A stretch of 37,548 bases of DNA from a virus. Shown here in pieces: positions 4,176 to 36,147 of the stretch. The stretch spans positions 1 through 37,548 of the IMG/VR virus record IMGVR_UViG_3300043411_000751; one strand, given 5' to 3'. The translations under genes were made by a program, and so were the position numbers. The first letter of the stretch is position 1. Every line of letters starts with the position of its first letter. Below the pieces are notes generated by a model. It worked only from the letters and a program-made list of their open reading frames with translations. It searched no databases and was not told the DNA's origin.

Positions 4176-4457
4176 CTAATAGCCGTAGCCGTCGCCGTTG
4201 CCGTAGCCGTAGCCGTAGCCGTCGCCGTAGCCGTCGCCGTTGCCGTAGCCGTAGCCGTAGCCGTAGCCGTCGCCGTAGCCGTCGCCGTAGCCGTTGCCGT
4301 TGCCGTTGCCGTTGCCGTAGCCGTTGCCGTTGCCGTTGCCGTAGCCGTAGCCGTCGCCGTCGCCGTAGCCGTAGCCGTAGCCGTAGCCGTTGCCGTTGCC
4401 GTTGCCGGATCTAACAACGTGTGACTCTTCAAAATTAACCGCTATTTCTTTTCCCAT
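4176..4457 (-). CDS. Gly-X dipeptide repeat protein (38 GN/GY/GD repeats)
   Basis: I favour ATG 4457, seven bases after GAGG, giving 93 residues. The first 17 residues (MGKEIAVNFEESHVVRS) are ordinary; the remaining 76 are 38 Gly-X pairs in which X is only Tyr (19), Asn (12) or Asp (7), ending GYGY and a stop right at the repeat edge. Such a chain should be disordered and sticky, like aromatic-spaced low-complexity proteins that form condensates or coats. I recall Gly-Tyr/Asp-rich ORFs in other phages but cannot check them. Its start overlaps the end of 4442..4717. Two other frames of the tract (Ala-Thr on this strand, Ala-Val on the other) are open but start at TTG without a ribosome-binding site. 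Confidence 0.65.
   Translation of the reverse strand: MGKEIAVNFEESHVVRSGNGNGNGYGYGYGYGDGDGYGYGNGNGNGYGNGNGNGNGYGDGYGDGYGYGYGYGNGDGYGDGYGYGYGNGDGYGY
4179..4406. repeat. Hexanucleotide tract, 38 units of GCCGTH
   Basis: On the plus strand 38 consecutive six-base units read GCCGT followed by A, C or T, never G. Five of six positions are invariant apart from one T at the very edge; all variation is at the sixth base and is not periodic. In the Gly-X frame the variable base is the first base of the X codon, giving TAC, AAC or GAC. In the two alternative open frames it is a silent third position. Confidence 0.95.
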
Positions 4458-21026: not shown

Positions 21027-21701
21027 TTACCATCCGAAGTAGGCGCCGCCGTTATCGATGCCCGTTTCCACGACCATTCTTGGCTGATCCAAATTTCTGT
21101 TCTGACTATCTTGTTTCATCATCTCTTCGTACATTCCAAGCTTTTGCGAAAAGACAGGATTAGGGTCGCGTTGGTCTTTTAAGAATCCGTCTAGCGTCGC
21201 ATAGATTGCAATCATCTCGTGATACTGTTCTGGGATGTCCGGGGACTCGGTGCTAGTCGTCATGTCCGCAATCAAATAGCTGTAGAGTAATTGCAGCGTG
21301 TACGCCTGGTCGGGGCATTTTACTAACGTGATGTAACCCTTATTAATCCAGTACGCCGCAGGCGTTCCCGTCCCTTGTGGAAGCAATGTCCTTTGTACAG
21401 GTGTCACAACCTGCAAAATACGAATATCCTGATTGGGATATGTCCCGCCCGGCATAATAATCTCAGCGCGATGAAGCCGTAGGAAGTCCGTAGGTAGCGT
21501 GTAGCTCTCGGTGTTTACGACCGTTGTGGTCTGTACCGATTTCGAAAACCACAATTCACCACTCTGAATTAATTTCTTCTGCACCTGTCTCGCAGCATTG
21601 TTGATAAACACATCGACTTGCGGGGTTGTGAAATACCCGCTGCCGCCGCCTGGGTCATCTAACCAAGTCAAAACGAGCGTTCTTAAATCTGCTAGCGTCA
21701 T
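21027..21701 (-). CDS. Head-tail adaptor protein (P22 gp4 / tubular A type)
   Basis: About 224 residues from ATG 21701, which overlaps the upstream stop (ATGA) and follows GGGGGACAGC. Motifs: LRTLVLTWLDDPGGGSGYFT, VFINNAARQVQKKLI, SYTLPTDFLRLHRAEI, then PEQYHEMIAIYATLDGFLKD and a helical end. The order (helical N-terminus, LPxDFLRL, YHE helix) is the usual one for the adaptor that bolts onto the portal in short-tailed phages. Confidence 0.75.
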   Translation of the reverse strand: MTLADLRTLVLTWLDDPGGGSGYFTTPQVDVFINNAARQVQKKLIQSGELWFSKSVQTTTVVNTESYTLPTDFLRLHRAEIIMPGGTYPNQDIRILQVVTPVQRTLLPQGTGTPAAYWINKGYITLVKCPDQAYTLQLLYSYLIADMTTSTESPDIPEQYHEMIAIYATLDGFLKDQRDPNPVFSQKLGMYEEMMKQDSQNRNLDQPRMVVETGIDNGGAYFGW

Positions 21702-23332
21702 GCTGTCCCCCATTTATTCTGGGCGTAAGTTTGAATGTCTGTAAAATTCTGTGAGGTCAGTACGGATGCGGCGATAAAGACTTCGCACAGGTACCCGCTA
21801 AACATGTAAAACCCGCCGCTACCGTGATCACCGCCCATGGAACAAGCTTGTTTTAGCACGCCGCTTGCTTGGGTATCGGAACCGGCCCCCGCGTTATTGA
21901 CAGAGCTGCGCATGGTTGTGGTGTCGTAGCTCCACTTTAGAACAAACGGCGCCGACGTGCTGATTGTTCCAGAGCTAATCGCTCTTCGCCCTACGTTATA
22001 ATCATAGTAATCAATTCGACTTAAATCAGATTGCTCGCAGGTAAGCTCGTTTGTTGCACCAGCCGCCGAATCCAAAAAGGCGTCATACTGACGAATGCGA
22101 GCTGGCTTAGCGATAACGATTACCGTAAACGTAGATAAATCCCCCGAGGTGCTAAAGTCCATTCGGTCATTCGACCCGTCATACAACGCCGCATAGAGGG
22201 AATTTACAGCACTCACAGTGAGAATCGGTTGGCGAATTCCCGTTCCTTGCGTCGCGTTTCTCACATTCCCCGATTTATCGTTTATCTGAGAGATTGCACC
22301 AGTTCCGCCGTCGTAGGTCATCGTAGGAACGTCTGCGTAATCGTACCAGTTGGTTAGGGTCAGCGAAGTGGGCGTCCAATTGGTCAGCGTGTTAGAAACT
22401 TGCGATGTGCTACCGCCCGGATTGGTCGCGGTCACACTACACGTAATGCTTTGACCTTCGTCGGCAGTGACGACCGCGTAGGTTGAATTAGTGCCGTTAG
22501 ATACGTTCGTTCCGTTTCGCTTCCACTGGTAAGCGTAAGTCGGCGTCGCGATACTCGTCCAAGTGCCGTTAGTGGTGGAGAGGGTTTTGCCTGCGTACAC
22601 ATAGCCCGAAGCAACGGGCGCTACCGTATTTACCGGCGCGGCCTCGGTGACATTCGCAGTCGAATTACTCGTCGCATTGGTATCGCCACCGGGATTACTT
22701 GCCGTGACCCGACAGCTAAGCGGATTTCCAATGTCCGCTGTGACTGGCGTGTAGGTGCTTGCGGTTGCGCTCGCAATCGTCGACCCATTCCTAAGCCATT
22801 GATAGGCGTAAGTGATAGTCGCCGTTCCCGTCCAAGTGCCGGAAGTCGATGAAAGGCTTCCGCCGACAATTGGCGTTCCCGTGACAGCTGGCGCCACCGT
22901 ATTGGTTGGCGCGTCGGCGTAAGCGTTCGATGTGGAATTACTCGTCGCGGAATTATTTCCGAAAGAGTTGGTCGCAGTGACTTGGCAGCTAAGAGGCGAG
23001 CCAATGTCTGCTACCGCAACAACGTAGGTCTGACTGGTTGCGCCCCCAATGGGTACGCCATTTCGAAGCCACAAATAGGTAAACGTAATTGGCTCGGCGC
23101 CCAACCAATCACCATCGGTAGTGCTAAGTGTATTCCCGACAAGCGGAGTCCCGGTAACGACGGGTGAAGCCTCGAGTTGTGGACTTTCGATGACCGGCTC
23201 ACCGTTTACATAAGCGACCCATGTGACAGTGGCACCGTAAAGCGAGCTAGTATAGCTGGCAGTCATACCGTGAAGCGCGGATGTGTAGGACGCGGTGTAA
23301 CCTAGGATGTATGCGGGCGTCGTCCAACTCAT
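21698..23332 (-). CDS. Ig-repeat virion protein with lectin-like C-terminus
   Basis: A 544-residue protein. Residues about 50..140, 145..230 and 235..320 are three Ig-like domains with the same plan: P-x-V-x-G-x-x-x-x-G-x-x-L, then W-x-x-x-x-x-x-x-Y-x-Y-x-W, GAT or SAT, then D-x-G-x-x-x-x-C-x-V-T-A-x-N. Residues about 330..544 include YDGSNDRMDFST and MFSGYLCEVFIAAS, a LamG/concanavalin-like fold that binds glycans in other proteins. The start MSWTTPAYILGYTASYTS has an alternating tyrosine pattern. Probably a capsid or tail decoration that sticks to surfaces or the host. No good ribosome-binding site precedes ATG 23332. Confidence 0.75.
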   Translation of the reverse strand: MSWTTPAYILGYTASYTSALHGMTASYTSSLYGATVTWVAYVNGEPVIESPQLEASPVVTGTPLVGNTLSTTDGDWLGAEPITFTYLWLRNGVPIGGATSQTYVVAVADIGSPLSCQVTATNSFGNNSATSNSTSNAYADAPTNTVAPAVTGTPIVGGSLSSTSGTWTGTATITYAYQWLRNGSTIASATASTYTPVTADIGNPLSCRVTASNPGGDTNATSNSTANVTEAAPVNTVAPVASGYVYAGKTLSTTNGTWTSIATPTYAYQWKRNGTNVSNGTNSTYAVVTADEGQSITCSVTATNPGGSTSQVSNTLTNWTPTSLTLTNWYDYADVPTMTYDGGTGAISQINDKSGNVRNATQGTGIRQPILTVSAVNSLYAALYDGSNDRMDFSTSGDLSTFTVIVIAKPARIRQYDAFLDSAAGATNELTCEQSDLSRIDYYDYNVGRRAISSGTISTSAPFVLKWSYDTTTMRSSVNNAGAGSDTQASGVLKQACSMGGDHGSGGFYMFSGYLCEVFIAASVLTSQNFTDIQTYAQNKWGTA

Positions 23333-23345
23333 AGGCGCTAGGGTA

Positions 23346-25490
23346 TCACTTGAGATCCATCAATTGCACCCATTCCGCCGCAACGGACTGCCACGAGAAT
23401 TGCTCGGAAGTCGGATTAATCTCGCGCCATTTCTCTTTTTCAATCGCGTCAATGACACGCGCTGCGTAGACGGAGTAGTTGGACTTTGGATCCAGCTCCA
23501 ACATGTCTTTCGGCATGTGTTTCATCGTGTCGGGTAACGCGCCCCACTTACGAACGACGGGCCACACGCGACACAGATGCGTCTCGACGGCGCTGATACA
23601 AAAGGTCTCAAGAAAACTTGTCGGGTATAGCCAGACGCTCGCCGAGTCCAATTCGGCTACCAACCGATTTTGGTCGATATTGCCCACAAGCTTCACGTAG
23701 GGCCGTTCGGCACACAGTTGTTTAAGCCGGTCCGCCTCGTGCCCCACGCCGTTTTTGTACATATTATCGAAGCCGTAATAGACGTGAAGTGTCGCTTCGG
23801 GAAGGCTTTGCACCACTAAATCCATGACCTTGAGAGCGTCCTCGAGGCCTCTATCAGGCGACGAGACGTAAACCACTTTGTTGCGGTCCTTATTCACCTC
23901 TCGCTCACCGAATCGATTCGGATCAATACCGTTTCTAGTCACAATGACTTTGTCGCGAGGAACACCAAACAGAGTATTGACGTAATCGCGATGAAAGTCC
24001 GATAGGCAAAGCGCATAATCGTAGTTCTGATGATTCTCAATTCCGGGCGCCATGAGGTCATGTAGCCAAATATAGGTTTTAGCGACAGTTAGTTTAGTCG
24101 TGTGTCTCCAAGCGACATGTACTTCCGGTAAAAACTCATTCATGTAGTCTTTCACCGTTTGCGCTGACCGATATTCTACCCCGTCGATGACCTTCGTTGA
24201 GACGCGGTTATTAAAAATAATGACCTTACGACCTGTGAGGCGGTGTAGGGCATCCGCCATGTGTATCGCTGCCGTCTCACTACCGCCGCATCCTTGCGTC
24301 TTTAAAATATCTTTATCCCACTCGTAAAATCCAACTGGATGTCCCGTAATGACAATATCAGTCGTTTTCTTTAGCCGCGCTTCGGGGACGATTTCTAACT
24401 TCGCTTTAAACTCATTCGCTTTATCGACGATTTCCAACGCTTCCGGCGTGGGTCGTATATCTTGGGACTCCGTCGCGAATGCAATCGCCTTATCGTAATC
24501 GCCCATATTGAAGTGAATGCGAGCTAGCTGCATCGTCGGCGCAATGTCATACGAATCGTCGTGTCGATGCGTGGGCGGAGCAATGGCGGCAATGGATTGC
24601 TTCATGCAGTTTCGGGCCGCGTGATAACACGGCAACGCTTCCGCGAATCGGTTTTGAGCGATGTAGCATTCACCTAAGAGATTGAAAAATTCAGCACGAG
24701 TAGGTGCGAGCGGAATGCCTGCGTGAATAATGGAAATCGCTTCCTCGAATTGCTTTAGCTCCATAGCGGCGAGAGCGGCGTACTGAATCGCCATTAGGCG
24801 GTCGTAGAGCTCAATGTCTGGCGCCTTCGATGCTTCCATGAGTTTTTGGTAGGCCTCGAGGGGCTTTTTATTCTCGAATAGCTCTTTTCCCCAATAAAAC
24901 TTCATGCGACCGCCCATAGGTTGCATCGAATGCTTTTCAAAAATATTTAGGTTTCGTCCTTTGTCTTGTTCGATGTCATCGGCGCTGCGGTGATGCTTCA
25001 CCCGCCATTGCGTTGCGTACATGACAGTCGGTTGAAAGCCATTGATGGGAGCAAGTCCCTCATGGACGAAGAATTTCCACTCAAAGTTACCGTTGTTTTT
25101 GACGATGCGTTCACGCGAAAAGGTGCAGACCGGGCGACCGACCGAATCGTGGGCGTAGTCGTAGGACGCAAACCACATGTCGGCGTGGCCTAGCATGTTT
25201 TTAAAGGCTTTGAAGCCTTCGGCGTCCTCTAAGGTATCGTCTGCGTCCAACCAAAGGATGTAATCGGTTTTAGCGTGGGAAAAAGCGTAATTACGGGCCG
25301 CTGCGAAGTCGAATACCCAATCGAAGTGGTGAACGTTGCAATTATAACTCTTAGCTATTTCTATGGTGCGGTCGGTTGACCCGGTGTCGGTGACGTGAAT
25401 TTCGTCAAAGCAGTCTTTAACGCTATCGAGAAGGCGCGGTAGGTTTCGTTCCTCGTTTTTGACGATGATACACAGTGCAATGGTCGGCAT
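23346..25490 (-). CDS. GT2 - TPR - GT-B fusion glycosyltransferase
   Basis: A 714-residue enzyme. Residues 1..95 form a GT2 domain: LCIIVKNEERNLPRLLDSV, TDTGSTDRT and the metal/nucleotide motif LDADD (81..85). Residues about 215..370 hold TPR-like helices (FFNLLGECYIAQNRFAEALP, DYDKAIAFATESQD). Residues about 385..714 are a GT-B domain with GCGGSETAAIHMADAL, VYVSSPDRGLEDAL, and E-x7-E in LETFCISAVETHL. Two transferase activities in one chain fit stepwise building of a disaccharide on a protein or lipid. It sits between decoration-protein genes and the Ig protein, suggesting that a virion protein is the acceptor. The alternative is modification of host envelope. GGGGGA precedes ATG. Confidence 0.85.
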   Translation of the reverse strand: MPTIALCIIVKNEERNLPRLLDSVKDCFDEIHVTDTGSTDRTIEIAKSYNCNVHHFDWVFDFAAARNYAFSHAKTDYILWLDADDTLEDAEGFKAFKNMLGHADMWFASYDYAHDSVGRPVCTFSRERIVKNNGNFEWKFFVHEGLAPINGFQPTVMYATQWRVKHHRSADDIEQDKGRNLNIFEKHSMQPMGGRMKFYWGKELFENKKPLEAYQKLMEASKAPDIELYDRLMAIQYAALAAMELKQFEEAISIIHAGIPLAPTRAEFFNLLGECYIAQNRFAEALPCYHAARNCMKQSIAAIAPPTHRHDDSYDIAPTMQLARIHFNMGDYDKAIAFATESQDIRPTPEALEIVDKANEFKAKLEIVPEARLKKTTDIVITGHPVGFYEWDKDILKTQGCGGSETAAIHMADALHRLTGRKVIIFNNRVSTKVIDGVEYRSAQTVKDYMNEFLPEVHVAWRHTTKLTVAKTYIWLHDLMAPGIENHQNYDYALCLSDFHRDYVNTLFGVPRDKVIVTRNGIDPNRFGEREVNKDRNKVVYVSSPDRGLEDALKVMDLVVQSLPEATLHVYYGFDNMYKNGVGHEADRLKQLCAERPYVKLVGNIDQNRLVAELDSASVWLYPTSFLETFCISAVETHLCRVWPVVRKWGALPDTMKHMPKDMLELDPKSNYSVYAARVIDAIEKEKWREINPTSEQFSWQSVAAEWVQLMDLK

Positions 25491-25591: not shown

Positions 25592-26035
25592 TTAGACGCT
25601 CGCTCCGAACTGCGACTTGATGTCCTGGAGTGCTTTCACGCTGAGCGTGACAGCTGCCGACTGGATGGCGGTGTTAGCGCCTGCGGCAACCAGTGTGATG
25701 ACATCGCCAGCTTGCAACGTCCAAGTGACGCCTGCACCGACGTTGAACGTCTGTCCGCCCGACGTTCCAAGTGCCTGAGCAACCATGGAAGCGCCGATAG
25801 CAATAGCCGTGAAGCCAGTGCCCACGACGAAGCGATTGAGCCACAAGGACATATTGGGTGCGCCCGATAGTCCCTGACAAGCTAGTCCAGCGCCGACCAA
25901 CTGGCCCGGCATTGGGATAACGGCAACGGCGTTAGTTAAGCCGACGGGTCCGCCGCCAACAAAACCGACAGCGAATGCCGAGTTGAAGTTTACAACCTGT
26001 TGAGACGAATCTAAGTCTCTATTTACGATAGCCAT
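25592..26035 (-). CDS. Capsid decoration or head-fibre protein
   Basis: A 147-residue protein rich in Ala, Gly and Val, low in charge: NSAFAVGFVGGGPVGLTNAV, then AIAIGASMVAQALGTSG, then GAGVTWTLQAGDVITLVAAG. The short alternate strands and the GVTWTLQAGDVITL end are typical of small phage surface proteins. A strong AAGGAAAATTC site and its own terminator argue for abundant expression right after the major capsid genes. It overlaps the preceding gene by 17 bases. Decoration protein is the likeliest role. Confidence 0.65.
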   Translation of the reverse strand: MAIVNRDLDSSQQVVNFNSAFAVGFVGGGPVGLTNAVAVIPMPGQLVGAGLACQGLSGAPNMSLWLNRFVVGTGFTAIAIGASMVAQALGTSGGQTFNVGAGVTWTLQAGDVITLVAAGANTAIQSAAVTLSVKALQDIKSQFGASV

Positions 26036-26441
26036 GTGAATTTTCCTTTCGGTAAGTTTTATCTAAAGTCGACGTGTTTATTCCGTCGGTTGCCTTCGCA
26101 AACTGCCGCCTGAAATCGAGTAGGAAACTTTCGATATTATTTCGTAAGTCCCGACTCTTCCCCTCTTCGACCATCTCGTTTTGTTTTAGGACATCGTCTG
26201 CCGTGACACCGCTATTCCACAAATCCATTGCGCGAAGTCTAGAGATGACAGGCTCGACGCCCCAATCAACGGGACGGCCTTGAGCGGTCCAATTGTCAGT
26301 AAGCGAAAAAATGAAATGGGGCGGACTTAGCTTGTCTCGGCTTTGCCGATAGACATCAATCCTGGGCGGCTTGTTACATACAGCGAATAACTCGCCATCG
26401 TAATGCTTTAAATACCCGGTTAATGACTTAGCTTTATCCAC
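26019..26441 (-). CDS. Hypothetical protein of the capsid cluster (140 aa)
   Basis: Started at GTG 26441 with GGGGGGA upstream; a TTG at 26456 is the alternative. The protein has a compact first half (LTGYLKHYDGELFAVCNKPP, then HFIFSLTDNWTAQGRPVDWG) and a helical second half (EMVEEGKSRDLRNNIESFLL). Proteins with this DNWxxxGxPxxWGxxPV pattern are found next to phage capsid genes and may act in head assembly or completion. Function not established. Confidence 0.65.
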   Translation of the reverse strand: MDKAKSLTGYLKHYDGELFAVCNKPPRIDVYRQSRDKLSPPHFIFSLTDNWTAQGRPVDWGVEPVISRLRAMDLWNSGVTADDVLKQNEMVEEGKSRDLRNNIESFLLDFRRQFAKATDGINTSTLDKTYRKENSHGYRK

Positions 26442-26461
26442 CCCAAATCCCCCCAACCAAA

Positions 26462-27679
26462 TTACGGAGCTAAATATTCTTGTACAGCGGCCTGACCCGA
26501 CGGTTGTTCGTTAAAGAGCTGTGCGAAATATCGCACGCGCACTTCAAACTGATCCGACGAGGTTTGCGCAATGTACATAGTTCCCGTTTCATCGGCGAAT
26601 TCCATGTCACTCAAGACGTACTGTTTCCAGTTACCTTCAGTGAGGAAGAAGAACCGACGAGGACAATCTTTATCCGGCACAACGGCGATGCCGTTGAAAT
26701 CGAGATAAAATTTATCCTTCTCTGCGAAACCGCCATCGCCTTTAACGGTATTGTTGTACCGTTTGTCGGCAGTGAGCAATTTCTGGTACATGCGAAGCGA
26801 GTCGAAATCGCAATAGATGGCGCTGTATTTAGCTCCACCGCGATTCATTCCCGCGTTCCATGCTTGCTGTAACGTATCGAGTTTCAACTGTTGTGCATTG
26901 TTCAAATCCACAACGTTGCCCTGGTACGCCTGATAGGTAGAACGGTCGACGCCGTAAATCGTCGAAGTGCCGCCATCCATGGAGTACAGCAACCCTTTCA
27001 TTTCGTAGCCATAGCTGCCTGAGCGAATGACTTTGTCATCAGCTGCGACAGTGACAGCGGCGGAAAGAGTGAGCGTTGCCGTTGAATCCGTAGGACTTCC
27101 CGAAATCGCGTTAATCGTGACCGATGTAGCGACAGGGGTAGCGCCGTTATAGATATCAATGACCATGCCGACATCGAGGAATTTCAACGCTGGCTCTACT
27201 GATTCGCGTCCTTTCACGACAAGAGTCGTAGAGGCGACAGCGGCAGTATTGACCTGCGCGAGTGTTCCCGAGCCGTCCCATGACAGCTGACGGTTAACGT
27301 CGTTGGAAAGGTCTTTGTATCCCATTTCCAATTCGTAAGCGGCAGATCGAACGAATGACCCACGGTCGTTTTGCGACGCTTTGATCATGGGCCCAGACAC
27401 GCCGAATCTCAAATAATTAAAAGCTGACGTGATAGTCGCCTGCACAGTCGTTTGACGACCGATGCTTGGCAATGTTCCGCCGTCGCTTGTGGCGCCGATG
27501 CCCTGGTTACGTCGCACGCGAAGTGGACGAATAACCTGGAAACCAGACCAACCCTGTTTTACTTTTTCCGACCCACGAAGAATGGGGATCTCTTCACTGA
27601 ATTGATCCGCAATTGGGCCTTGATAGTAGTTTTTTAGCTCGGCCATTCCCGAGACTATGCCCTGAAAAGAATTTGCCAT
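26462..27679 (-). CDS. Major capsid protein (HK97 fold)
   Basis: A 405-residue protein starting MANSFQGIVSGMAELKNYYQ. It follows the layout of large-phage capsid proteins: N-arm with EEIPILRGSEK, RFGVSGPMIKAS, YELEMGYKDLSNDVNRQLSW (long spine helix), an inserted Ser/Thr-rich domain (residues about 160..215), and C-terminal parts with YCDFDSLRMYQKLL, VVPDKDCPRRFFFLTEGNWK and the acidic DMEFADETG. It comes directly after the scaffold gene with GAGGGG before the ATG, as in all P22-like orders. Confidence 0.85.
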   Translation of the reverse strand: MANSFQGIVSGMAELKNYYQGPIADQFSEEIPILRGSEKVKQGWSGFQVIRPLRVRRNQGIGATSDGGTLPSIGRQTTVQATITSAFNYLRFGVSGPMIKASQNDRGSFVRSAAYELEMGYKDLSNDVNRQLSWDGSGTLAQVNTAAVASTTLVVKGRESVEPALKFLDVGMVIDIYNGATPVATSVTINAISGSPTDSTATLTLSAAVTVAADDKVIRSGSYGYEMKGLLYSMDGGTSTIYGVDRSTYQAYQGNVVDLNNAQQLKLDTLQQAWNAGMNRGGAKYSAIYCDFDSLRMYQKLLTADKRYNNTVKGDGGFAEKDKFYLDFNGIAVVPDKDCPRRFFFLTEGNWKQYVLSDMEFADETGTMYIAQTSSDQFEVRVRYFAQLFNEQPSGQAAVQEYLAP

Positions 27680-31307: not shown

Positions 31308-31623
31308 CGAACACCTTTTCTTCAATCGTCATACGTTCCATGCGTTTGGCTTGCTCTTTTTTGCCCGCTTCAAACACTTTTACGTCGTGATAAATGAAGT
31401 AGTAGGACTTCTCCCACGCTTTCATTCCCGCTTTGTTGAAATGCTTAATCACTTTCAAGTCGGCTTCCACTTCGGGATGCGATTCGCCCTCGGCGGCGCC
31501 ATTCGACAGAGCGATAGACACATCGTCTAAGAATTTATTTAACTCGTCGCGGGTGAGCGATTGCTCACCGTTATTCTCTTGGATTTCCCTTCCCAAGCTT
31601 GTTTGCGATGTACCACTTTTCAT
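31291..31623 (-). CDS. Small helical protein overlapping the end of the nuclease gene
   Basis: A 110-residue helical acidic protein from ATG 31623, overlapping the terminase nuclease gene by 53 bases. SLTRDELNKFLDDVSIALSN, then HPEVEADLKVIKHFNKAG, YYFIYHDVKVFEAGKKEQAK (mixed charge) and a C-terminus EEKVFGGHRY. No family recognised. The start is uncertain because no good ribosome-binding site is seen; downstream TTG codons are possible. Confidence 0.6.
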   Translation of the reverse strand: MKSGTSQTSLGREIQENNGEQSLTRDELNKFLDDVSIALSNGAAEGESHPEVEADLKVIKHFNKAGMKAWEKSYYFIYHDVKVFEAGKKEQAKRMERMTIEEKVFGGHRY

Positions 31624-32362
31624 AGTCGACGTCGGCGGGCGTTGGCTCACGAAACACTTTCCTTTCGATTGGATACGTCACGATAGCGTCCAAGCTGGCT
31701 AGCGCATCTAAAATATCGTCATGCGCTCCGCGTGGGAACGTATCGTATTCTCTTTCAAAATCAGCGAGCCCTTGGGCCAGCATGATTGTTCCCATTTCAA
31801 AACGAGGGACTAAGCTGAGGATACGCATTTCTTTCGTCTTGTCAGTGCCGAGATTCACGCCGGTCACTGGAATATGCTTATTCCTTCGCTTCATTTCCTC
31901 GTGGGCAAAATGGATTATAGCTTTTTGAAATGCGACTGTCTCGACGCCAATCATCTGAGTTTTATAGCTCTCGGCTATTTTAAATAGCAGATCGATGAGT
32001 TGAGACGGATTCATGCGGCGGCGGAAGGCGTTTACGACATACCAGTTTTGTTGCGTGTCGACCGATACAATGACCACGCCGGTATAGTCCGCAGTGTCGG
32101 CTTCCGAGATTGCCGGGTCGATGAATGCGAAGGTGAGGACGTTTTTAGGTAGCTCCGCGTAATAGCGACGCCAGTGTTTTTTGAAAGTCTGCAAGCCGTC
32201 GGGGATGCAGACATTTAAATATTGGTTTGAATAGAGGTAAGGCCCCATCGTGCGACGGGCCGATTCAAGAAACTGATAAGAGAGTCGCTCGGGGAAAAGT
32301 AGAGTGCCGTCGTCCTCTATCGCCTTTCGGTAACAAACGGACCACTCGGGGTTAACTCGCAT
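31571..32362 (-). CDS. terL-C: Large terminase, nuclease subunit (split gene, C-terminal half)
   Basis: A 263-residue protein equal to the second half of an ordinary large terminase. The RNase H-like active site is intact: Asp82 in FAFIDPA with Asp92 in TADYTG, Glu141 in GVETVAF and Asp215/Asp216/Asp219 in GAHDDILDA. The opening (PEWSVCYRKAIEDDGTLLFP, then RRTMGPYLYSNQYL) is the linker segment that normally follows the ATPase domain without interruption. The ATPase is a separate gene 3.1 kb upstream (35425..36147). It starts at ATG 32362, sharing a base with the stop of the gene before it. It would cut concatemeric DNA at packaging; it must find the ATPase by non-covalent contact. Confidence 0.9.
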   Translation of the reverse strand: MRVNPEWSVCYRKAIEDDGTLLFPERLSYQFLESARRTMGPYLYSNQYLNVCIPDGLQTFKKHWRRYYAELPKNVLTFAFIDPAISEADTADYTGVVIVSVDTQQNWYVVNAFRRRMNPSQLIDLLFKIAESYKTQMIGVETVAFQKAIIHFAHEEMKRRNKHIPVTGVNLGTDKTKEMRILSLVPRFEMGTIMLAQGLADFEREYDTFPRGAHDDILDALASLDAIVTYPIERKVFREPTPADVDYEKWYIANKLGKGNPRE

Positions 32363-32745: not shown

Positions 32746-33408
32746 CTAAAGTATTACCCCGCGAACGAGTATCTTAAAGATGCGGCTATCAGCGTGGTCC
32801 TTATATTTCTCTGAGAAATATTGCTTATTCCAATCGAAGTTAGCTTTGTGGTCTGGCTTTTCGTAGTGAGTCATTCCGATCTTGTGATGCACGACGCTTT
32901 TGTAACTGCGGTACATTTTCCGGCCTTGCAGATAGTTCCGCATGATTAGGTCGGAGTCGTCCCAGCTTCCCGGCTTATAAGCCTCGTCAAACCATGCTTC
33001 GGCTTTCGGTACCATCGCCACACTAAACCAAATGCCCTCTTCGATTTTATTCTGCTTAGGGTGTGCGAATTGATCCGTCGCTAGTGTTGCCATGCCGCAG
33101 TCAGAGATTTTGAAGCACTCGAGTAGGTGCTCTAACCAACCATCGTCCACAATCACGTCGTTAGTCAGCAATACGACCTTATCGCCCGACGCGCAGTAAA
33201 ACCCACGGTTAATCGACTTCGTTGCGGTTGTTTTCTTCGACTCATGAATGTAGGTGTCGGCAACGCTTGCGAAGTAATTAGTCAGTGTCTCAACGACGAC
33301 TAGCTCAAAATCGAGCTCGGTTTTCTCCCGCGCATTGCGAATGCATTCGTTAGTCGTTTGCAATTGCGTGTCATTGCTAATCAGAGTTGGGACGACGACG
33401 GAAATCAT
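32746..33408 (-). CDS. GT2 family glycosyltransferase
   Basis: A 220-residue GT-A fold transferase: ISVVVPTLISNDTQLQTTNE, then FELVVVETLT, ATKSINRGFYCASGDKVVLL and the aspartate motif TNDV/DDGWLEHLLE; later GSWDDSDLIMRNYLQGRKMY carries the acidic catalytic region. It is short, single-domain and soluble. With the SDR gene upstream and the big fusion enzyme at 23346..25490 it forms part of a sugar-handling set. Acceptor and sugar are unknown. The gene overlaps the upstream gene by four bases. Confidence 0.8.
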   Translation of the reverse strand: MISVVVPTLISNDTQLQTTNECIRNAREKTELDFELVVVETLTNYFASVADTYIHESKKTTATKSINRGFYCASGDKVVLLTNDVIVDDGWLEHLLECFKISDCGMATLATDQFAHPKQNKIEEGIWFSVAMVPKAEAWFDEAYKPGSWDDSDLIMRNYLQGRKMYRSYKSVVHHKIGMTHYEKPDHKANFDWNKQYFSEKYKDHADSRIFKILVRGVIL

Positions 33409-33674
33409 ACGACGCCATCGACGGGTTGGTATGTTTTCTCAAAAATATCCGGCTTACAGGGATAAAACTCACCGTTTAGCCCTTTGATTATCCAATCACC
33501 CAGGCAAGCGGTCATAAAGCCTTCTAGCGTGTGGATACGAAGGGCTTCGCCGGGGTCTAACGGATTCCACGACCATAGATTTCCAGGCATAAACTCGAGC
33601 ATCTCATCAGCGTTGCCAGTCCATTGCAAAGCCTCTTTGATTACCGGTCTCATCTGAAAAAACTTAGGCTTCAA
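33405..33674 (-). CDS. Common phage protein of the QWTG ... EFYPCKPDIFEKTY family
   Basis: About 89 residues. KEALQWTGNADEMLEFMPG, then LRIHTLEGFMTACLGDWIIK and GEFYPCKPDIFEKTYQPV. This motif set is one of the most widespread among small proteins of tailed phages, yet no function is assigned. I start at TTG 33674, which overlaps the SDR stop as TTGA and lies seven bases after GGAAGG; a longer start at 33692 is less well supported. Confidence 0.8.
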   Translation of the reverse strand: MKPKFFQMRPVIKEALQWTGNADEMLEFMPGNLWSWNPLDPGEALRIHTLEGFMTACLGDWIIKGLNGEFYPCKPDIFEKTYQPVDGVV

Positions 33675-34627
33675 GATATTTCCTTCCGACAATGGTCGAG
33701 TAGGTGAATCACCGTCTCATAAAACGAATACCTAGGCCGCCAACCCGTCGTCATCGTGAATCGCGTGGTGTCCGGTATCTGTAGCGTCACATCACTCGGG
33801 CGAAAGAGCGCCGGATCCGCCTCGCACTTAATCTCGACCTTGCCGTGGGCTTTCAATATATCGAGGAATTCCCCGACGCTGACCGAAGTCGTCCCGCCGA
33901 TGTTATAAACCTCGCCGGGCTCACCGTGGAGCGCCGCCGTCACATACGCTTCCATAGCGTCACGCACATCAATCACAGTGCGCAGGCTATCTAAATTCCC
34001 GTGCTTAAGGACGGTTTGTCGCCCTTCCTCGATAGCCACTATCTGCCTTGCGAATGAGGTAGCGAATAAGTCAGCGCGCCGGGGATTCACGTAGGTAAAC
34101 ATCCGTGTCCTGACGATGTGCAGTCCGTAGGCATTGAAATAGGTAAGTCCCAGTAAATCCTGAGCGACTTTGGAAACCGCATAAGGCGAGCTCGCCCGAA
34201 GCGGAGCTGACTCTTTAATCGGGACTTCGGTGGGCAATACCTGACCGTACACTTCGGATGTGGAGCACATTTGGATTTTAGGCTTAAGTCCCGCCTGCAT
34301 GATAGCGGCGAGCAGGTTAGCGGTGCCCATGACGTTGTTTTGGATGGTTGATAGCGGGGTATCGAAGGACGCCCTGACATTCGCGTAGCTTGCGAGGTGA
34401 AAAATCACATCGGGCTTCACTTTATCTAACGTATATAGCACTGAGCTATAATCGGTTAGGTCGCACTCGTGCATAATCGCTCGTACGTTCTTTAAATTTT
34501 TATGCGACGTAGTGGAATGCCAACGCGAGATGCCGTGGACGATAGTGTCGGGGAAATTGTGGTTAATGTGTTCGGCGAGGTAAGAGCCCCCGCTGCCTGC
34601 AATGCCGGTGATTAGTACGGTTTTCAC
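33671..34627 (-). CDS. Extended SDR, GDP-mannose 4,6-dehydratase-like
   Basis: A 318-residue sugar-nucleotide enzyme. The NAD(P) loop is TGIAGSGGSYLAEH (G8, G11, G14), the active site has CSTSEVYG (121..128) and Tyr149/Lys153 in PYAVSK, with LASYANVRASFDTP before it. The GSGGSYLAE opening and RPSDV near the C-terminus resemble GDP-mannose dehydratases and their reductase relatives; an NDP-hexose epimerase is the alternative. It would feed a deoxyhexose to the glycosyltransferases. It starts at GTG 34627 with no clear ribosome-binding site, within the block between the terminase halves. Confidence 0.85.
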   Translation of the reverse strand: MKTVLITGIAGSGGSYLAEHINHNFPDTIVHGISRWHSTTSHKNLKNVRAIMHECDLTDYSSVLYTLDKVKPDVIFHLASYANVRASFDTPLSTIQNNVMGTANLLAAIMQAGLKPKIQMCSTSEVYGQVLPTEVPIKESAPLRASSPYAVSKVAQDLLGLTYFNAYGLHIVRTRMFTYVNPRRADLFATSFARQIVAIEEGRQTVLKHGNLDSLRTVIDVRDAMEAYVTAALHGEPGEVYNIGGTTSVSVGEFLDILKAHGKVEIKCEADPALFRPSDVTLQIPDTTRFTMTTGWRPRYSFYETVIHLLDHCRKEIS

Positions 34628-34639
34628 GTGGGAACGGTA

Positions 34640-35095
34640 TCACTCAGGGACATTTTTGAGCAATTGCCTTTTGGCCCTTCGGATTATGGTATCGACGGCG
34701 GTGAGCGTGCATCCGTTGATGAAAGCTATTTCATTGCGCGACAAGCCCCACACAAGGTGGAGAATGAGTGTTCGGCGACACTCAGTATCAAGGCCAGAAA
34801 AAAGGTCAGCAACAATTGATAGTAGATGCGATTCGTCAGTCGCTTCGAGTGCCACGGTCGATTCGTCATAGTGATCTCCGATCTCCACGTGCTTTTTGAA
34901 GTACGACGCTTTTCCTCGGTAGCCCTGACTTCGTAAATAATCGACTACGGTGTGATAGGGGGATTGCTTTAGGCCGTATCCCTCGAAAAACTTTATCGCG
35001 GCGTGAGAGGCGGCATCCTCGGCCTCGGCATGGGGAAGTCCGAAGGCGAGCGCCGCCTTGATTATGCGGCGACGCCGTTTCTCATGGTCATCCAT
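34640..35095 (-). CDS. Sigma-70 family-like factor
   Basis: A 151-residue protein with two helical parts matching sigma regions 2 and 4. The first (ALAFGLPHAEAEDAASHAAI, then TVVDYLRSQGYRGKASYFKK) resembles region 2 with its aromatic/basic DNA-opening surface; the second (RRTLILHLVWGLSRNEIAFI, then GCTLTAVDTIIRRAKRQLLK) is a standard region-4 helix-turn-helix. Such small sigma-like proteins occur in some short-tailed phages and may direct late transcription. It follows a strong terminator, directly in the cargo between terminase halves. The ribosome-binding site is weak. Family assignment is fairly secure; a role in late promoters is inferred. Confidence 0.7.
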   Translation of the reverse strand: MDDHEKRRRRIIKAALAFGLPHAEAEDAASHAAIKFFEGYGLKQSPYHTVVDYLRSQGYRGKASYFKKHVEIGDHYDESTVALEATDESHLLSIVADLFSGLDTECRRTLILHLVWGLSRNEIAFINGCTLTAVDTIIRRAKRQLLKNVPE

Positions 35096-35424: not shown

Positions 35425-36147
35425 TCAATCTATCAAAGGCTCGTCACGAATAAAGATTTCGTTTCGTAAGCAATACCCTATCAAATCCTCTTCGTGATAT
35501 CGCGTACCTACGACGGCTAGTTCACCGCCCGGATCGAGGATTGATTGGTAATAGCGATAGTGGTCTATCACCTTCGCACGATTCTCCGGCGTGTTGGAAT
35601 TCTGTGGGCTATTCATGTCGTCTAGTAAGGCCAATTGGTAATGTTGGCCGGTTTTCTGAGCGCCCATACCGGAGCACGTGAACGTTGCCTCTTTCTTTAC
35701 GCTAGTGCGTTGCGCGCACAGTATCTCGCTTTCATTCCACACGCCTTGGCCACGTGGGTCGCCGAATAACTCGACGAAACGCGGTGACTGCAAATGCATC
35801 GAGATTTCCCGCAGCGTGCGCTTTGAGTTAGTGAACAACTCCGAGTCGATAACGATGCGGATATTGAAATCGTTGATAAATCGCCAAATCGAATAAGCCA
35901 CAACGGCAATCGAAGTCTTGAAAGTGCCGCGTGGCATGACGACTAATTTTCGTTTTGATTCGCCCTCAAGGGTTTGAATCATCTCGCCGTGAGTGCGCCA
36001 ATTAACACCTTCGTATCCCAGCAAATACTTCGACGTCAGATACAGGCTCTTACGATAGAGCGCGGCTTCCCCGGCTCGCAGCGTCGCTATTTGGTCCTTA
36101 TTCTCAAGTTTTTGTAGTTCATTTAATAACGCTTTCGGATGGTACAA
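35425..36147 (-). CDS. terL-N: Large terminase, ATPase subunit (split gene, N-terminal half)
   Basis: A 240-residue protein equal to the first half of a large terminase. Walker A is MPRGTFKTS (71..79), Walker B LALLDD (172..177) and the coupling motif VGTRYHEEDL (213..222); helices QSPRFVELFGDPRGQG and TPENRAKVIDHYRYYQS match the family. It stops after IFIRDEPLID, where others continue into the nuclease linker. Start is TTG 36147 after GAGGGGGA. It would power translocation of DNA into the head. The missing nuclease is encoded at 31571..32362; no intein or intron sequence is seen at either end, so the product must act as two chains. Confidence 0.9.
   Translation of the reverse strand: MYHPKALLNELQKLENKDQIATLRAGEAALYRKSLYLTSKYLLGYEGVNWRTHGEMIQTLEGESKRKLVVMPRGTFKTSIAVVAYSIWRFINDFNIRIVIDSELFTNSKRTLREISMHLQSPRFVELFGDPRGQGVWNESEILCAQRTSVKKEATFTCSGMGAQKTGQHYQLALLDDMNSPQNSNTPENRAKVIDHYRYYQSILDPGGELAVVGTRYHEEDLIGYCLRNEIFIRDEPLID

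Follow-up and report, generated by a model that had tools for sequence, protein, structure and literature searches.

GmaR of Listeria monocytogenes, a flagellin O-GlcNAc transferase and antirepressor, is a cellular protein in which an N-terminal GT2 domain is followed by TPRs; its C-terminus is an all-helical antirepressor with no GT-B domain, and TPR-mediated acceptor binding has been proposed for it (PMC9638930). FlmG of Caulobacter and the O-GlcNAc transferases carry TPRs and a GT-B domain in one chain and have no GT2 module, and the TPR of FlmG was shown to recruit the protein acceptor (PMC7591256). The peptide S-glycosyltransferases SunS and ThuS, about 420 aa long, consist of a GT-A domain and a helical region without GT-B, and modify bacteriocin peptides. 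Virion glycosylation has so far been demonstrated in a few mycobacteriophages: according to one report, Che8, Corndog and Myrna glycosylate their own capsid and tail-tube proteins, and this shields the proteins from antibodies (PMC12363180). Che8 has three glycosyltransferases (GTs) in a row at the right end of its genome, outside the capsid module and without a TPR fusion.

The phage protein described here joins a GT2 module, a TPR region and a GT-B module in one polypeptide of 714 aa. It shares the N-terminal order of GmaR and differs from it by the GT-B module; from FlmG and the O-GlcNAc transferases it differs by the GT2 module and by a GT-B closest to GT4-type enzymes. Che8 gp108 and gp110 have no significant sequence similarity to it. 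The same three-part architecture is present at full length (26% identity) in the "beta4glucosyltransferase" of the Manatee Spring podovirus ctKR88 (MW202524), whose gene follows the capsid gene with one small gene in between; however, ctKR88 has a capsid protein of another family and more GTs and methyltransferases behind the GT. A literature search for the GT2-TPR-GT-B architecture in phages found nothing relevant, and both the architecture and its fixed linkage to the capsid gene appear to be undescribed. Although virion glycosylation is already known, a capsid-locked, apparently TPR-guided dual GT with a mostly conserved adjacent Ser/Thr-rich partner appears to be new.

The DNA analyzed (the window) is the 37.5-kb IMG/VR fragment IMGVR_UViG_3300043411_000751, classed as linear. 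Its genes include portal, scaffold-like, capsid and tail genes, and it belongs to a short-tailed environmental phage. All of the evidence is computational, the contigs compared are environmental fragments, and contig counts depend on profile thresholds, with only obvious duplicates removed. The gene and its modules are as follows.

23346..25490, minus strand: 714-aa GT2-TPR-GT-B glycosyltransferase (ORF, domains, AlphaFold2, structure matches, conserved slot, purifying selection)
24933..25490, minus strand: GT2 (GT-A) module, residues 1-186 (PF00535, match to the GmaR GT domain, invariant columns)
24399..24930, minus strand: TPR/helical module, residues about 187-364 (TPR_1, TPR_2 and TPR_8 above cut-off; helices in the model)
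23349..24365, minus strand: GT4-type GT-B module, residues 376-714 (PF00534, Z 25-29 to GT4-type enzymes, invariant columns)

Domains, fold and active sites of the 714-aa protein

A single uninterrupted ORF on the minus strand fills positions 23346-25490. The initial annotation, which gave no strand, had proposed two GT folds separated by a TPR spacer in one polypeptide, and this was confirmed by Pfam, AlphaFold2 and VIA-align. Pfam detected a GT2 domain at residues 6-89 (PF00535, E 5e-21), TPR repeats at about residues 230-346 (TPR_2, 2e-11, with TPR_1 and TPR_8), and a GT-B domain at residues 528-688 (PF00534, E 1.5e-8; 34.8 bits against a curated cut-off of 26.4). PHROGs gave the same split, with phrog_13126 (beta-1,4-glycosyltransferase) on residues 1-346 and phrog_2170 (glycosyltransferase) on residues 461-710.

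The AlphaFold2 model, built from 22 sequences, has a mean pLDDT of 87.8 and a pTM of 0.63; how the domains sit relative to one another is thus predicted with less certainty. With VIA-align, residues 1-277 superposed on SunS (Z 24.6, rmsd 2.9, 269 aligned) and residues 1-369 on ThuS (Z 24.2, rmsd 7.2), and residues 376-714 superposed on GT4 enzymes with Z 25-29 (27.5-29.2 for sucrose-phosphate synthase, MshA and HepE). OGT and SPY were among the Foldseek matches at a TM of about 0.3, whereas the GT-B module aligns best with GT4-type enzymes. The nearest solved protein by sequence (PDB) was the GT domain of GmaR (2e-25), followed by SunS (1e-15); against the SunS equivalog TIGR04195, the phage protein scored 63.5 bits, below the NCBIfam cut-off of 350.

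Invariant columns were read from an alignment of 22 sequences, the most distant of which are 22-27% identical to the window protein. The GT-A motifs (DxD-type D82, D84 and D85; H143-E144; R179-N180) were invariant, as were G402-G403-S404-E405, N520-G521, R547 and E628 in GT-B. The structural features of the GmaR/SunS type (a GT-A fold and a DxD motif, then TPR helices) and of a GT4-type GT-B (PF00534 above cut-off, a GT-B fold and EX7E) are present in the window protein. The EX7E motif is E628-x7-E636; the distant group does not conserve its second Glu, and the mechanism of GT-B may therefore differ among relatives. Because the metal- and nucleotide-binding motifs are invariant over the 22 sequences, both GT modules look catalytically intact.

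In a pair of 96% identical relatives, dN/dS was 0.03 for GT2, 0.05 for TPR and 0.09 for GT-B; a more distant pair, with synonymous sites near saturation, gave 0.12-0.20. As judged from these sequences, both GT modules are under strong purifying selection. When the window was compared with contigs L009 or L086, the TPR region was the least conserved, at 32-37% identity compared with 45-54% in the catalytic parts; this would be expected if the TPR reads a fast-changing partner.

Capsid-module position and candidate acceptors

The GT gene lies among structural genes, all on the same strand.

26462..27679, minus strand: major capsid protein (phrog_14242, 5e-42)
26019..26456, minus strand: conserved capsid-module protein (p145), 145 aa (conserved in the lineage)
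25592..26035, minus strand: probable capsid cement/decoration protein, 147 aa (AlphaFold2; Pam1, KHP40 and GP4 capsid chains; tandem paralogues in relatives)
21698..23332, minus strand: Ig-repeat virion protein, 544 aa, candidate acceptor (PF13895, PHROG virion families, composition, gap)
21027..21713, minus strand: connector/tail-tube-A-like protein, closing the conserved slot (phrog_399, 8e-10; synteny)

Wherever sequenced, the lineage has the order capsid, cement, usually a Ser/Thr-rich protein, GT and head-tail connector. Contigs recruited by capsid similarity (57-80%) keep the order capsid, p145, cement, variable genes, GT and connector; as far as covered, this was seen in L085, L086, L088, L092, L093, L097 and L011, with L085 covering only the start of the GT. 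L009, recruited via the GT, has the same order, and L010 begins at the GT. The contigs recruited by GT motifs alone were afterwards scanned with capsid profiles. Of these, 26 have a window-type (type-1) capsid gene, a count that is slightly low because L198, L207, L209 and L226, repeats of contigs from the capsid search, were excluded; in these 26 the GT follows the capsid gene at a distance of 1.1-5.1 kb downstream. With the second, ctKR88-type capsid family, the GT lies 0-1500 nt downstream on the same strand in 37 of 41 contigs (median distance 498 nt). These slot-bearing contigs share common ancestry and are therefore not independent trials. Exceptions are relatives of the ctf1B273 and L040 types, in which the GT is near the terminase or upstream of the portal; at a further 16 GT loci no capsid gene was recognized, in several cases owing to the shortness of the contig. 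Among annotated isolates, the closest relatives of the window capsid protein (25-28%) come from phages of Arthrobacter, Microbacterium and Cellulosimicrobium.

Identity matrices of the GT and the capsid protein were concordant (Mantel r 0.91 for 8 phages and 0.84 for 13 phages; both p 0.0002), which indicates joint inheritance of the two genes. Given its fixed position and this co-inheritance, the GT is a core gene of the morphogenesis module and not a moron.

The initial annotation had placed the gene between a decoration protein and an Ig/lectin-type virion protein. The 147-aa neighbor has a jelly-roll/Ig-like fold in a moderate AlphaFold2 model (pLDDT 69); its top Foldseek match was a capsid chain of cyanophage Pam1, followed by cement chains of KHP40, KHP30 and GP4. 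It superposed on phage cement/capsid chains (7eel_H, 7dou and 8h89) with Z 9.0-9.8 (VIA-align), and C1q/TNF-type jelly rolls scored as high. In Pam1/KHP/GP4-like phages, trimeric cement proteins are on the outer capsid surface (PMC9698820). The decoration-type assignment thus holds as cement-like, and the other neighbor is an Ig-repeat virion protein, starting 13 nt past the GT stop and directly downstream; its Pfam and PHROGs matches were to Ig repeats and virion families, with no confirmation of a lectin domain. Both neighbors had been credited with ample Ser/Thr/Asn. This holds for the Ig-repeat protein (Ser+Thr 27%, z 3.3 against the phage's own proteins), but the cement protein has an average composition (Ser+Thr 14%) and was rejected as a Ser/Thr-rich acceptor. 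In relatives, the cement gene is tandemly duplicated in 2-4 copies (L086:8900-10225, L097:11687-13008, L091 and L095).

In 25 of 26 lineage contigs, the gene directly upstream of the GT, in most cases no more than 70 nt away, encodes an undescribed Ser/Thr-rich protein. The copies examined have 158-247 aa and 20-30% Ser+Thr, and the protein ranks first or second for Ser+Thr in nearly all contigs checked. It bears ALGTTNV-like heptads in variable copy number, had no Pfam match, and had no homologue in the other phages fetched. The heptad number differs widely between phages (L011:5197-5940, L095:15413-16108), like a fibre shaft of variable length. This protein is likely the acceptor in the wider lineage. 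Ser/Thr richness is common in virion fibres, and as evidence for an acceptor it is therefore only suggestive. A profile search gave no match to the upstream protein in the window, and it is also missing in L085 and L205; since all three retain the GT, other acceptors are possible too. The window offers three candidate acceptors: the Ig-repeat protein next to the GT, the cement protein and the capsid protein.

Proposed function and alternative explanations

We propose, with a probability of about 0.7, that the 714-aa protein works in the cytoplasm as a soluble two-step protein glycosyltransferase, acting on a virion surface protein during morphogenesis. The TPR superhelix would capture the virion surface protein in the cytoplasm, and the GT2 module would place a first sugar on Ser/Thr side chains, in the way that flagellin is modified by GmaR and peptides by SunS/ThuS. 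The GT4-type GT-B module would then, in the presumed order of catalysis, add a second sugar or modify a second site. The product would be a glycosylated capsid-surface or head-fibre protein, and the phage may gain shielding, stability or adsorption. Two accessory genes in the window are compatible with this mechanism, as are the further GTs and methyltransferases that follow the GT in ctKR88-type phages.

33671..34627, minus strand: nucleotide-sugar dehydratase/epimerase (SDR), accessory (PF16363, 9e-67; PF01370, 5e-49)
32746..33408, minus strand: second, small GT2 protein, accessory (PF00535, 1.6e-8)

The best equivalog match of the SDR was TIGR01472 (gmd), below the model cut-off, and a GDP-mannose-4,6-dehydratase-like SDR could possibly supply a donor sugar. 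GT4 enzymes act more often on lipids or sugars than on proteins, and this was counted against the two-step reading, together with the variation of EX7E, the Ser/Thr richness usual in fibres and the cases in which the upstream protein is missing.

The GT might instead modify a host surface polysaccharide (LPS, teichoic acid or capsule) during infection, so as to mask receptors or exclude superinfecting phages; glycans of this kind are commonly made by GT2 and GT4 enzymes, and the SDR and the other GT2 in the window would fit. We consider this unlikely. Features of O-antigen-converting gtr cassettes are lacking: the protein has no membrane segment (maximum 19-residue hydropathy 1.1), and the GtrA family (PF04138) was absent from 13 related records, with a positive control. 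Also against it are the fixed late-gene position within the capsid module, the inheritance concordant with that of the capsid gene, and the action of the nearest solved relatives on proteins or peptides. A system that hides or builds host glycans, as the initial annotation had suggested, therefore finds little support. Its other suggestion, a self-glycosylating virion, is well supported by context, namely the fixed capsid-module position across two capsid families, the co-inheritance, the Ser/Thr-rich virion-like protein coupled to the GT in the lineage, and the kinship with protein and peptide glycosyltransferases.

That kinship with GmaR and SunS, together with the TPR spacer, points to a protein acceptor, and we regard it as highly improbable that the GT glycosylates hypermodified DNA as in T4 and TET-type phages, even though phage DNA glycosyltransferases are common and sugar genes flank the packaging genes here. 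The thymidylate-synthase/hydroxymethylase family (PF00303) was absent from the 13 related records, which are possibly fragments, and its control was positive; a Tet/JBP search gave zero matches in related records, and its positive control likewise gave no match. A mainly structural role, as a TPR chaperone or assembly factor in which GT catalysis is lost or dispensable, would suit the position among structural genes and the co-inheritance with the capsid gene, and GmaR, a GT2-TPR protein, has a second, non-enzymatic role (PMC9638930). We regard it as quite improbable, given that the metal- and nucleotide-binding motifs are invariant in 22 sequences down to about 25% identity and that both GT modules are under strong purifying selection.

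More tentatively, and with slightly less than even odds, two-step virion glycosylation may be general: capsid glycosylation would be obligatory in a large group of short-tailed phages, most of them uncultivated, and would be carried out by a phage-specific GT2-TPR-GT4 enzyme that is mostly coupled to a Ser/Thr-rich head-fibre acceptor. If so, particle maturation in a widespread environmental group would include glycosylation as an ancient, conserved step, performed by one dedicated two-module enzyme, and glycoprotein capsids would be a core trait rather than one of cargo genes, a viral counterpart of the flagellin-glycosylation modules. The succession of capsid, cement, Ser/Thr-rich gene and GT2-TPR-GT4 could serve as a genomic signature for finding glycosylated phages. 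The predicted enzyme, a compact, soluble, TPR-guided two-sugar protein glycosyltransferase, would be amenable to in vitro work.

Distribution of the fusion and further observations

The fusion had been described as rare in phages. Among isolate records this stands, with the GT at ≥80% coverage in 3 of 50,697, apparently one genome in three rotations; among environmental contigs it does not, with 475 relatives, dozens of them full-length, in one scan of viral contigs. The GT of the window's own lineage was absent from all isolate records searched. A single-sequence scan of viral contigs gave zero matches, and alignments were required. Matches labeled as Listeria "phage" and human fecal "phage" (H5, H8, H38 and H40) were rejected: they are short and unannotated and look like pieces of bacterial chromosomes, and the fecal ones are surrounded by ordinary bacterial genes.

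No fused bacterial ancestor was among the best 80 genome_contigs loci listed, all of which were GT2-TPR only. In 292 genomes of one phylum (centered on a record titled cyanobacterium) and 299 of another (centered on a Clostridia MAG), with at most three candidates scored per genome, there was no fusion; the matches were one half or had the modules in reversed order. In these bacterial samples, GT2-TPR proteins have a length of about 355 aa and many come from Clostridia; GT-B also occurs there as a free protein of ~370 aa. As the bacterial samples searched gave no GT2-TPR-GT-B protein, the fusion looks phage-specific within the sampled cellular genomes.

In ctf1B273-like phages (L004:3472-7791; L029, L030/L031, L032, L035 and L042), the GT is cut in two inside GT-B at NGIxKEQF, and the halves are separated by a phage groEL gene (phrog_5725, 2e-110); the GT is intact in the sister phages L022, L027 and L040.

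The SDR and the small GT2 (window 32746-34627, minus strand) lie between the two halves of the terminase gene. L085, the closest relative, has neither at that place, which suggests that both were acquired recently as accessory genes. The large terminase is encoded by separate ATPase and nuclease ORFs (window 35425-36147 and 31571-32362, both minus strand) about 3 kb apart, covering positions 270-465 and 465-712 of phrog_38. This split is common to all relatives showing both halves, and MW202554 also annotates two large-subunit genes. The terminase nuclease ORF of L085 (L085:1673-3400, 575 aa) has, within the domain, an insert of about 290 aa that may be an intein; the domain match stops at residue 241 and picks up again at residue 530. 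Also between the terminase halves is a 151-aa protein with sigma-70 region 4 (window 34640-35095, minus strand; PF08281, 6e-7), which has a homologue at the same place in L085. An Rfam search found no RNA elements. At 4180-4407, the window carries a hexanucleotide tandem repeat, TAGCCG, in 38 copies and open in several frames.
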